In this document: piece by piece, positions 3,008-6,415 of the stretch
How the letters are laid out: the number at the start of each line of letters is the position of its first letter
Position numbering within the stretch: position 1 is the first letter of the stretch
Origin: a virus
Length of the DNA stretch: 29,645 nucleotides
Virus record (IMG/VR): IMGVR_UViG_3300010885_080910
Location: 1 to 29,645 of that record
Strand: one strand, 5' to 3'
Made by a program: the position numbers and the translations under genes
The notes under the pieces: generated by a model
Told to the model about the DNA's origin: nothing
What the model saw: the letters and a program-made list of their open reading frames with translations, nothing else
The model's database searches: none

Positions 3008-6000
3008 TCAATCTTCGTCTGTGATAAATAAGCCTTCAATTTCATTATTGATATTTTTTTCTTCGACCAAAAGTCCGTCAGGCTGCTGGGGGCGAGGTCC
3101 TAACTTCAATGTCATGCGTCTCAAGGCCGAAGATACGTCTGACGGAAGGCTAGTCTTGAATCTCGGTGATGGTGATTCTTTGAATGGATCTCCTCTCATC
3201 TCTCGATTAGAAGCCTTGATGTCATAAGGGTCTTTTGTGTCCTTGTGAGACGTCATCTTCACAAAATCAGGTTGATGGAGATTGTGTTTCTTGCGACGAG
3301 AACTGTCATATATGGCTTTCTTTAGCTGAGATTGAGCTTTGACAGGGACCTTGTCCTTTTCGTAAAGCGGCATGTCTATATCAGGTTCGTCAGAAGACGT
3401 CAGAAGCTCGACGTCAGGTTCCTTTTCACCTGCGTCATCGCCGGCGAATAAATCTTCTCCTCCGCCTTCTTCCTCACCACCGGCGGCCTCTTCTTCTCCT
3501 CCGCCTTCTTCTCCTCCGCCTTCTTCCTCTCCGCCTTCTTCCTCTCCGCCACCAAAGAGATCACCGCCGCCTTCTTCTCCACCGCCTTCTTCTCCGCCTT
3601 CGCCTTCTTCTGGTTTAGCGTTCTCTATGGTGGTATCGACTATTTTTTCCTTGTAACGCTGGTCGTCGAGGGCTTCGCATTGTTCGTCAGTCAGACCCCA
3701 TATGGTCTTCCTAACAAATTCTTTGCTTCCCATACCTTCTGGCAAAGAACCACCAATTTCAAACTTAGAGCGCCAGAGTTCCAACTTCTGCTGCTGGGCC
3801 ACCGTCGATGGATTAGAGAGGTGCAGGGTAAAGTTCTGGAGATCTTCTCCATCAAACCCATTAGAATACAGATGGATTATTGCAAGTTTATTTAACTCAG
3901 CCAGAAGGACCTTCTGGATAACGTTGATAGTCCTAGAAAAACGGATGTCCTCTTGAGCCAACGTCGCCTTGGACGACAGCATCTCATCGTAACCCAAATA
4001 AGCCCGTGGAATCTTCAAAGCCGCAAACAACTTCTTTTGGATATAGGCGACGTCCTCGACAGCTGCCGCGTTCTGACCGCCCGCCAGGGTATCGATCTTT
4101 GTGCCGGAATCTCCGCCGCGGACAGGAATAAAATAATCGTCCTCTATGCTCAAAGGAGCGTATCGAAGATCCAGACGACCGGTCTGTCGATCGACAACTT
4201 GGTTGGTCCGAAGATTCTTTCTCTGTTCCTCAACATACATGGGAACATTCTCAGGAGGTATATTAGCAACATCGATATAGAAGACACGACGTTCTGGGGC
4301 ACGGACGACCCTGTATACTAACATGGCATCTTCGATTAGTATTAATTGACGCCAGATGCGCCGAGCCGCCTCGATGACCGAAGAGCCGTAGGGCAAGAAC
4401 ATGTCATTTCCAAGCAGACGGAAGTGAGTGACTTCCCAATTCTCTAAAGTCCTGTTGCCTAATGTAACCCAACGATAGCGAACGGCAAAGGGATCGTTGG
4501 GATCATAATTCTCTTCTCTTTCTATTTCATTGACAGGAATAGGAAAAGCGTTGATGACTCCATACTCGGGTGAAACATCGTTGTAGAGGAAAAAATCACC
4601 GTACTTGACAAGGTTACGAGCCCATGATCGGAGGTTAAATTCTACATTTAGAGTATTATAAAAAAGGTCTTCGAGAATCTCTTTGACCTTTTCATTGTCA
4701 GAATAGATGTGTAATACTCTACCTTTTTCGTCCTGCGCACAGGTTTCATCGGCATATATGTCAAGAGCCGCGGCTAGCTCCGGTGTGTTGTGAGATATTA
4801 CCGAATCGGTCGCAAAATTCTTATATCCATCGACGGTTAAGTCGTAGAGCGGAATAACTCCCATGTATTCTATGGATTCCACTTTACAATTTTGATAAGC
4901 CGAAGCAAATTCGCTGTACCTCTTGTGACCTTGTTGCGCCAATCGAGAAATGATGGTGTTCTTGTTAACACCTAAAGAAGAAGCCAATCGGGGGAGAGTT
5001 TGGCCTGGTAGATAGGCGTCACATATTTGCTGAAATGTTATTTCGTGATTATTCTTTTCCTTGGGTCTTCCACCACGGCGGAGCAAGTTTGAAAAGCCAG
5101 TGCTTCCTTGATCGTTGTATCCCAAAGAAGACCTCAGCTGCGTCCAGGTCATTCTTTCTCTTTTTGCTAAAAATTTATCCAGCACATTGGTGGTACAACC
5201 TAATTTAATGGCCAAAGATCGCTTTGTGTCCTCGGGAAGAACTACAGAACGTATCATATCTAACGTCAAGTCTCTTGTCAACAATCCAGGACGACCATCG
5301 ATCAGAGAATCTTTTTGTCCATCGCGATAAGCTTCGACAAATTGCTCAAAATTGGCAAATCCATGTGCTGTCAGCCGAGAATATATCAAATTCCAGGTCA
5401 CATCTAAGGTCGACGCAATCGCAGGCATGCTAAAACCGACGCGCTCGGCCGCTTCCAGTATCCTAGAAAATGTAACGTCGGTGCGGGCGGTTGGGGCATT
5501 GTCACGCATCCATGCGGAATGACGTTTTTTAAAGTCTTCTATCCATTCCCCATTTTCAGGCGACCATTTTACATTATTATTTAAGGCTGTGTGATAAGAA
5601 TCGTGATCCGACTTCGACATAATTTTTAGATTTTCTGGTCGATTGTCGGTCTTCACAAAATTAATGTGATGAACCACTTCATCTTCTGCCAAATTTCTAC
5701 CCACAACCCACTCGGCAACCATCTGGTGCTCTTTGGTCCATCCACGGAACCTATCGTCCATCGTATAAATCCAAGAATATCCCCCGGTGCCTTCCTTGGC
5801 CCCTTCAAAAAGATCCTTGCGATAGAAGGGCATCATGGAATCCCCAGGCTGTAAATCCTCAACCTTCCTGTAGGTGCCATCTCGCAACATCAAACGATGC
5901 TCTGGGCTGGCAATTATTTCCTTGCCGTTATCAAATTTGACTTTCCACGCATGGTCAACGCAAGTCTGACGAGCTTGCTTGCCCAATGCTGGCACTATTT

Positions 6001-6376
6001 TTTTCTGTACATGGTCGTAAGAATAAACGACGAAGGTCTTATTCGGATCTTTTTCGCACTCTTCCGTCAACTCACCGATAGTTTTGAATCCATCAGGCGT
6101 AGCAATTTTTGTAGAAATTGCCAGTGAATATTCCATTTCTTGAAAATCTTGGTACCTCATCAGGCGCTCTGAGAGGTTATAAGCGTTGGCCGTAATGGTC
6201 GCGTAAGTTGGAGCCAAAGACTTTTGAAATAGTAACGCTCCAGAAGACTTGGACTTGTCGGCCATCGCTATCGTCGTGTCAAGGGTCCTTATCTTACGCT
6301 TGACGACAGGACCGCTCTTGAACAGTTTGGACAGTCTCTGAAATAAAGAATTTGGTTTTTGGTCTTTGCTTGCCAT
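3008..6376 (-). CDS. 20: Portal protein, T4 gp20-like, interrupted by an intein
   Basis: 1122 residues from ATG 6376 (a TTG at 6394 would add six). Removing the intein (nt 4787-6127) leaves a portal of about 675 residues. The portal ring sits at one capsid vertex, nucleates the prohead and is the DNA channel. Support: extein residues QEMEY join TPELAAALDIYADE, the conserved N-terminal block of T4-type portals; downstream there is DFFLYNDVSPEYG, EVTHFRLLGNDMFLPYGSS, the helical stem region RVFYIDVANIPP, and GYDEMLSSKATLAQEDIRF typical of gp20 homologues. It is longer than T4 gp20 (524) because of a Glu/Gly-rich segment (nt about 3433-3615) and a basic tail. It lies downstream of the terminase and upstream of the protease, as expected. 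Confidence 0.93.
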   Translation of the reverse strand: MASKDQKPNSLFQRLSKLFKSGPVVKRKIRTLDTTIAMADKSKSSGALLFQKSLAPTYATITANAYNLSERLMRYQDFQEMEYSLAISTKIATPDGFKTIGELTEECEKDPNKTFVVYSYDHVQKKIVPALGKQARQTCVDHAWKVKFDNGKEIIASPEHRLMLRDGTYRKVEDLQPGDSMMPFYRKDLFEGAKEGTGGYSWIYTMDDRFRGWTKEHQMVAEWVVGRNLAEDEVVHHINFVKTDNRPENLKIMSKSDHDSYHTALNNNVKWSPENGEWIEDFKKRHSAWMRDNAPTARTDVTFSRILEAAERVGFSMPAIASTLDVTWNLIYSRLTAHGFANFEQFVEAYRDGQKDSLIDGRPGLLTRDLTLDMIRSVVLPEDTKRSLAIKLGCTTNVLDKFLAKRERMTWTQLRSSLGYNDQGSTGFSNLLRRGGRPKEKNNHEITFQQICDAYLPGQTLPRLASSLGVNKNTIISRLAQQGHKRYSEFASAYQNCKVESIEYMGVIPLYDLTVDGYKNFATDSVISHNTPELAAALDIYADETCAQDEKGRVLHIYSDNEKVKEILEDLFYNTLNVEFNLRSWARNLVKYGDFFLYNDVSPEYGVINAFPIPVNEIEREENYDPNDPFAVRYRWVTLGNRTLENWEVTHFRLLGNDMFLPYGSSVIEAARRIWRQLILIEDAMLVYRVVRAPERRVFYIDVANIPPENVPMYVEEQRKNLRTNQVVDRQTGRLDLRYAPLSIEDDYFIPVRGGDSGTKIDTLAGGQNAAAVEDVAYIQKKLFAALKIPRAYLGYDEMLSSKATLAQEDIRFSRTINVIQKVLLAELNKLAIIHLYSNGFDGEDLQNFTLHLSNPSTVAQQQKLELWRSKFEIGGSLPEGMGSKEFVRKTIWGLTDEQCEALDDQRYKEKIVDTTIENAKPEEGEGGEEGGGEEGGGDLFGGGEEEGGEEEGGGEEGGGEEEAAGGEEEGGGEDLFAGDDAGEKEPDVELLTSSDEPDIDMPLYEKDKVPVKAQSQLKKAIYDSSRRKKHNLHQPDFVKMTSHKDTKDPYDIKASNREMRGDPFKESPSPRFKTSLPSDVSSALRRMTLKLGPRPQQPDGLLVEEKNINNEIEGLFITDED
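3433..3615 (-). repeat. Glu/Gly-rich low-complexity repeat in the portal C-terminus
   Basis: About 60 residues made almost only of Glu and Gly in units such as GGEEEGG and GGGEEGGG, twice broken by DLF (GGGDLFGGG and GGEDLFAGDD). On the plus strand it appears as repeated CCGCCTTCTTC blocks. It follows the folded portal core and precedes an acidic then basic tail. It is likely a flexible, strongly acidic extension; its length may vary between relatives through slippage. Confidence 0.85.
4787..6127 (-). other. Intein with HNH homing endonuclease inside the portal gene
   Basis: 447 residues. The N-terminal splice residue is Ser (SLAISTKIATPDGF, block A). Block B is GKEIIASPEHRLML, with Ser in place of the usual Thr but the His kept. 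The C-terminal blocks F and G read LYDLTVDGYKNF and VISHN, followed by Thr+1 of the extein. So splicing would use Ser1, the block B His, the penultimate His and terminal Asn, and Thr+1. Between the splicing halves is an HNH nuclease: VHHINFVKTDNRPENLKIM followed by DHDSYH. After it come three repeats of about 50 residues that look like helix-turn-helix DNA-binding units. The reading frame is open throughout, so the element is probably active or recently so. The insertion point is in a conserved portal block. Confidence 0.93.
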
Positions 6377-6415
6377 ATAGTCTTGCCTGTCCAATCGTGG
6401 ACGCGGCTCTCGCTC

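Follow-up and report, generated by a model that had tools for sequence, protein, structure and literature searches.

A probable HNH-bearing class 1 intein in a T4-like phage portal gene, and Ser1 relatives that lack the motif-NX histidine

Here we describe an in-frame insert of 447 residues in the portal gene of a virus recorded in IMG/VR as IMGVR_UViG_3300010885_080910; the whole stretch analysed, called the window below, is 29,645 nucleotides long (positions 1 to 29,645 of that record). The insert, which interrupts a T4-like portal after EMEY and before TPE, is very probably a class 1 intein of full length that carries an HNH homing endonuclease. Comparisons made at the sequence level establish its fold family, its intein residues, precise empty sites in relatives, a recent horizontal transfer marked by identity over a short flank, and purifying selection; by its features the insert would splice, cleave DNA and follow the chemistry set out below. 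It is a genuine T4-like portal intein, HNH-bearing and recently mobile, and ordinary in kind, and the family of portal intein alleles to which it belongs has apparently not been described so far. Ser1 forms at this site probably derive from Cys1 forms, without use of the histidine known from other Ser1 inteins as motif NX, so that the first nucleophile may be assisted or substituted by another residue, for which Cys56 is the strongest candidate. A first-pass annotation, made from the window alone, had proposed a Ser1/Thr+1 intein in the portal, to which the present analysis adds an HNH endonuclease, horizontal transfer, the lack of the NX histidine and the association with Cys56.

The insert and its reading frame

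An open frame of 1128 codons (3008-6394, minus strand) encloses the insert without any stop. Translation of 4787-6127 (minus strand) gives 447 in-frame residues that begin with SLAIS, after QEMEY, and end with VISHN, before TPELA, exactly as the first-pass annotation had read them. The portal without the insert has 681 residues counted from TTG, or 675 counted from ATG at codon 7, the latter being the length predicted earlier for the spliced protein. A search with intein profiles had been proposed as a check, and these profiles do match: Pfam Intein_splicing at E 7.9e-16, and the NCBI models for the N- and C-terminal regions of inteins, TIGR01445 (E 3.4e-9) and TIGR01443 (E 5.9e-4), both beyond their curated cut-offs. 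Pfam HNH_3 also matches within the insert (E 2.5e-8), and Portal_T4 matches the whole frame (E 3.7e-68). Given the intein, HNH and portal matches, the insert is not a product of chance. The portal of an intein-free relative, L004, matches T4 gp20 (3ja7). Scanning the window with Intein_splicing gave no second match, and the same scan detected no intein in its terminase.

The features of the frame, all on the minus strand, are as follows.

6128..6394, minus: N-extein of the portal, 89 residues from TTG or 83 from ATG at codon 7, ending ...RYQDFQEMEY
4787..6127, minus: intein (predicted from profiles, fold matches and relatives), 447 residues, Ser1 to Asn447, followed by Thr+1
5807..6127, minus: N-terminal splicing region, residues 1-107, with Ser1, R53-Q54 at motif NX, Cys56, and block B S74-P-E-H77
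5591..5728, minus: HNH endonuclease core, residues 134-179 (Pfam HNH_3 spans 134-175)
4895..5479, minus: three helical repeats, about residues 217-271, 284-334 and 364-411 (AlphaFold2 helices and alignment)
4787..4885, minus: C-terminal splicing region, residues 415-447, with block F YDLTVD including Asp429, and block G ...SHN
3008..4786, minus: C-extein of the T4-like portal (Portal_T4), starting at Thr+1 (TPELA)

The splicing domain is thus formed by residues 1-107 and 415-447, with the HNH core and the helical repeats in between. By the residue definitions in PMC5222942 and PMC4031507, all class 1 residues are present (Ser1, H77, D429, H446, N447 and Thr+1): the insert is precise and in frame, has a Hint/intein domain, and carries Ser1, the His of B:10 (H77), the Asn of G:7 (N447) and Thr+1. 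Ser1, Thr+1 and the serine in block B (SPEH) had all been noted from the sequence. When the AlphaFold2 model was compared with the PDB, all 50 matches listed were intein or bacterial-intein-like (BIL)/Hint structures, 44 of them at E <=0.001; by sequence, the best PDB match had E 0.14 for the single sequence and 1.6e-9 for a profile. Within the HNH core, H153, H154, N156, D161, N162, N166 and H179 are invariant across 28 aligned inteins, so that the motif residues of an HNH homing endonuclease, matched by HNH_3, are intact. The repeats probably have helix-turn-helix character and may read the target DNA. Of 78 inteins (the set defined below), the 18 with 437-449 residues have the middle repeat and the 60 with 372-379 residues lack it.

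In the proposed mechanism, Ser1 would attack the Tyr-Ser peptide bond (N-O shift), the N-extein would pass to Thr+1, Asn447 would cyclise with help from His446, and the portal halves would become joined. In co-infection the HNH enzyme would cut intein-free portal alleles at a site read by the helical repeats, and repair would copy the intein into the empty allele. The portal is essential in tailed phages, and splicing of its precursor is presumably efficient, as had been argued earlier.

A class 3 mechanism was considered and rejected for the window intein. Class 3 inteins have Cys at F:4 and Trp at B:12 and require no nucleophile at residue 1 (PMC5222942), and they set a precedent for a first nucleophile located elsewhere; unlike them, the window intein has Asp429 at F:4, Leu79 at B:12, and Ser1.

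Empty and filled alleles

Relatives were gathered with the C-extein alone as query, and the best 80 of 128 confirmed portal loci were examined. The site is empty in 48 of them, with the extein halves directly joined and the N-extein running straight into TPE, and in 29 it is filled at exactly the same point (site b). Two more (L034 and L040) have an insert four codons upstream (site a, QDF/C, the slash marking the junction) with Cys at +1, and in L058 the contig ends within an insert that closes HN/T. The site-a inteins differ in their middle parts: L040 retains the last repeat only, and L034 has an HNH stretch without any repeat. Thr+1 follows all 32 complete site-b inserts, including the window copy, L002 and L003, a count made without Thr+1 as a precondition. 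The proposal that the portal block closes without the insert is therefore borne out in relatives lacking it at the same codon, among them the close relative L004 (92-98% identity to the window in portal DNA). These precise empty sites in 48 of the best 80 relatives refute the alternative that the insert is a structural domain of the portal, an idea also opposed by the intein profiles and fold matches and now hardly conceivable. In a quick tree of the portals, filled alleles are interspersed among empty ones, with 21 changes on the best tree, 5 of them forced by well-supported branches; shuffling the filled and empty labels gave 26 changes on average, so there is some clustering by descent as well.

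Recent transfer

The inteins of L002 and L003 are 99.0% and 97.5% identical in DNA to the window copy. The portal and neighbouring genes of L003 are 66-80% identical to those of the window where they can be aligned, with 71-72% for C-extein DNA. Upstream of the site the window and L003 share 60 identical bases, beyond which 19-24 of every 30 are identical per block; downstream just 9 bases are identical, and then 18-26 of 30. Among 1687 locus pairs with a C-flank identity of 0.66-0.76, a comparison in which L002 stands in for the window, only L002-L003 matches at 60/60 upstream bases; L003-L004, with 59/60, is the same event viewed through the empty allele. The identical flank of 60 bases upstream and 9 downstream is, as far as sequence can tell, the trace of homing with co-conversion of a short flank, and the intein appears to have moved recently between distant phages. 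An insert shared by divergent hosts together with a short stretch of identical flank is what a mobile HNH homing endonuclease would leave. The inteins of the window and L003 differ by 24 synonymous and 9 non-synonymous changes, and the resulting dN/dS of 0.10 indicates that the intein protein has been constrained since the transfer.

Residue 1 and the missing motif-NX histidine

Two further scans raised the site-b set to 80 unique pieces, of which 78 are single complete inteins; L169 and L190 were excluded because each holds more than one intein. The site-a loci L034 and L040, the contig-truncated L058, L113, L140, L157 and L167, and L186, whose N-terminus is missing, were also left out. Because several of the loci L100-L197 duplicate contigs already represented among the earlier loci, the counts for this set are on unique sequences, and extraction of the 78 demanded HN/T[PA]E, so that Thr+1 is assumed within this set. 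Residue 1 is Cys in 65 and Ser in 13. Block B has Ser in 12 of the 13 Ser1 inteins and in 12 of the 65 Cys1 relatives. The first-pass annotation had called both serines unusual; both are there, but neither is unique, as each recurs among inteins at the site.

Ser1/Thr+1 inteins are a known minority (PMC10189870). In the alignment of 58 Ser1/Ser(Thr)+1 inteins by Pasch et al. 2023 (PMC10189870), a histidine preceded by Arg or Lys, motif NX, is conserved in all but two, and its replacement by Ala abolished splicing, or nearly so, in the three Ser1 inteins tested. The Arg-His of this motif precedes the block-B His by 23 residues in PI-PkoII and by 22 in MjaTFIIB (PMC10189870); the CL intein has NX His68 and block-B His90 (PMC13014065), and the NX His of PolB16 lies 41 residues ahead of the block-B His. 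In the window intein, Arg53-Gln54 aligns with the Arg-His of PI-PkoII and MjaTFIIB, 23 residues before His77, and the alignment with PI-PkoII is gapless to block B. Profile comparison with Ser1 inteins was weak (38.8% probability), and the NX match rests on this alignment and the equal spacing to the block-B His. The window intein therefore has the Ser1 and Thr+1 of the Ser1/Ser(Thr)+1 subgroup and lacks its NX histidine. At this position Gln is found in 13/13 Ser1 inteins at the site, and His in 4/65 Cys1 inteins.

On the intein tree, the 13 unique Ser1 sequences and 5 Cys1 sequences form one clade of 18 rows (support 100/99), and the other 60 rows are Cys1. Searching with a profile of the three-repeat class, by means of two peptide patterns, gave no further contig of this class among the best 80 matches listed, and a search of genome contigs for more Ser1 members returned a single weak match that was confined to the HNH part and was not used.

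Several points count against the insert being an active class 1 intein with a homing endonuclease. The AlphaFold2 model is of intermediate quality (mean pLDDT 70.9, pTM 0.41), with ten-residue block means of 74-91 for residues 1-100 and 75-92 for 411-447. Block B has Ser in the usual Thr position. The histidine found critical in the Ser1 inteins tested by Pasch et al. is absent, so known residues do not fully explain the Ser1 chemistry. Lastly, the 60-base identity may partly reflect conserved sequence, yet no other equally diverged pair reaches 60/60.

Cys56 and the origin of Ser1

Cys56 is found in all 13 unique Ser1 inteins and in one of the 65 Cys1 inteins (L181); the partial Ser1 intein L113 has it too. 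Glu76, directly ahead of the block-B His, has a similar distribution (13/13 Ser1, and 2/65 Cys1, L111 and L191). On a tree from which these columns were left out, Ser1 requires 3 changes and Cys56 requires 4. The 2-3 independent pairs on this tree, in which Cys56 either accompanies Ser1 or is equal in both members and is never reversed, are too few for significance, and functional coupling of Cys56 with Ser1 is for this reason not proven. Ranking by mutual information did not single out column 56.

The codon for Ser1 is AGT in six inteins (L105, L107, L110, L177, L178, L182) and TCA or TCG in seven (window, L002, L003, L071, L100, L102, L104). Because AGT and TCA/TCG are not one base apart, the codons favour at least two switches from Cys to Ser at residue 1.

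The portal inteins with Ser1 are probably ordinary Ser1/Thr+1 class 1 inteins that tolerate Gln at NX, with Cys56 and Glu76 marking the lineage and having no function. Exceptions to motif NX exist, two of the 58 published Ser1 inteins having Tyr or Asn there (PMC10189870), and many columns follow residue 1 through common descent. This account has to accommodate the loss of splicing in the three inteins whose NX His was changed to Ala (PMC10189870), the lack of that histidine in every one of the 13 Ser1 forms, and independent pairs that show Cys56 with Ser1 or no difference, never the opposite. Tentatively, they may instead be a distinct mechanistic variant in which Cys56, next to the N-terminal active site, arose with the Cys-to-Ser change, probably at least twice, and does the job of Cys1 or of the NX histidine; Cys56 would attack the N-terminal junction, relay the acyl group or activate Ser1. 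Such a role is suggested by its distribution, including L113, against a uniform Gln at NX, by the two types of Ser codon, and by the grouping of L111 (Cys1, Arg56) with L177/L178 (Ser1, Cys56) at support 98/95. The strand predicted by AlphaFold2 at residues 43-65 also covers both the NX position and Cys56, two residues apart, and in the CL intein the strand with the NX His is part of the catalytic centre (PMC13014065). However, there are just 2-3 independent changes on the tree, and within the 18-member clade columns such as 221 and 244, after the HNH core, split Ser1 from Cys1 fully while column 56 does not, so shared ancestry accounts for part of the association. L181 combines Cys1 with Cys56, every Ser1 member keeps its Ser1, which speaks against mere replacement by Cys56, and a single origin of Ser could give two codon types through an intermediate or a double change. 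The few events, L181 and the better-separating columns are why we regard a role for Cys56 as doubtful, if worth stating.

That the Ser1 forms are crippled, splicing poorly or undergoing cleavage only, with few spliced portals or in defective phages, is very unlikely. C1S substitutions did inactivate several Cys1 inteins (PMC10189870), but the 13 unique Ser1 sequences, with mutual identities down to 59%, all keep H77, D429, H446 and N447, the dN/dS of 0.10 indicates constraint, and the host gene is an essential one. If the variant with a working Cys56 were true, nature would here have converted Cys1 inteins into functional Ser1 inteins, and their near Cys1 relatives could serve as controls. The switch to Ser1 was apparently made without the histidine identified by Pasch et al., and since Cys1 and Ser1 members share one insertion point, the requirements of a serine nucleophile can be tested on a few natural sequences.

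Comparison with known inteins

PolB16 OarG, Aes123 PolB1/CL, PI-PkoII and MjaTFIIB (PMC10189870) share with the window intein Ser1, Thr+1 (or Ser+1), the block-B His and the C-terminal Asn; the window intein differs from them in having Gln for the NX His and a Cys two residues later. Compared with cysteine-less Ser1 inteins, it has other Cys residues, so it is not cysteine-less, and its close relatives are Cys1. The available parts of the literature on Ser1 and cysteine-less inteins (PMC10189870, PMC11923092, PMC13014065, PMC5222942, PMC4031507, PMC7765530) yielded no Ser1 intein in which a Cys compensates.

The first-pass annotation had called a portal a less usual host for an intein. The intein is there, but portal inteins have been published, with 6 cases in cluster C1 mycobacteriophages (PMC5050341); these PORT inteins likewise sit in a phage portal gene, in a different host group. 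In the available parts of the portal-intein literature, a search that most subscription journals fell outside, we found no T4-like portal described as carrying an intein. One paper mentioning inteins, gp20 and the portal vertex names inteins in terminase, PhoH and ribonucleotide reductase genes, and another found none in its phage. The TerL inteins of the phages Maynard, crAss-like, phiCbK and IBB_35 (PMC3868846, PMC7886860, PMC3556154, PMC3322345) likewise occupy an essential packaging gene; here the host gene is the portal, and the terminase of the window has no detected intein.

Portal genes as an intein hotspot

The further scans yielded 98 new loci, 4 of which end inside an intein, leaving 94 portal frames. 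Inteins were counted by junction patterns for nine sites, near-identical loci such as L181 and L185 being counted separately: 78 frames have one occupied site, 11 have two, 2 have three, 2 have four, and 1, which is truncated, has none. Reading by eye revealed a tenth site, before SKATL, in L160 and L182, both among the 78 one-site frames. These portal genes are thus an intein hotspot with about ten sites and up to four complete inteins per gene. Haloarchaeal MCM inteins, at four neighbouring sites (PMC10643990), likewise occupy clustered sites in one gene invaded by homing; in contrast to the MCM helicase gene, the host here is a phage structural gene with about ten sites, of which two are separated by four codons. 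Portals with three or four inteins offer a way to study the load of self-splicing on an essential virion gene.

The portal frames of L181 (L181:635-6562) and L185, of 1976 codons, have four inteins with both junctions at four sites and the N-terminal part of a fifth; the profile finds five N-terminal intein regions in the L181 frame. The fifth intein lies before SKATL and has an HNH-like stretch. Since the frame ends inside it, it may be a broken or split intein or reflect faulty assembly. At L190:1997-6916, three inteins are spaced by 6 and 5 portal residues, and the middle one ends with Gln, followed by Ser.

Inteins that start with Pro occur at RNL/CKYGD (L101, L102, L104, L130, L181, L185) and at NPL/S (L107, L131). 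Those of L101 and L104 have YCMEV in block F and HEW in block B, which is class 3-like, but with Cys at +1, exceptional for class 3 (PMC5222942). Two unannotated records of very large phages have portal inteins at other sites, read by eye: three in the portal frame of LR756508 (L084, 484 kb) and one in that of LR756511 (L085, 595 kb). In G002:C1:202485-203704 and G004:C1:152754-154036, N- and C-terminal intein halves lie in separate open frames, possibly as split inteins or interrupted genes.

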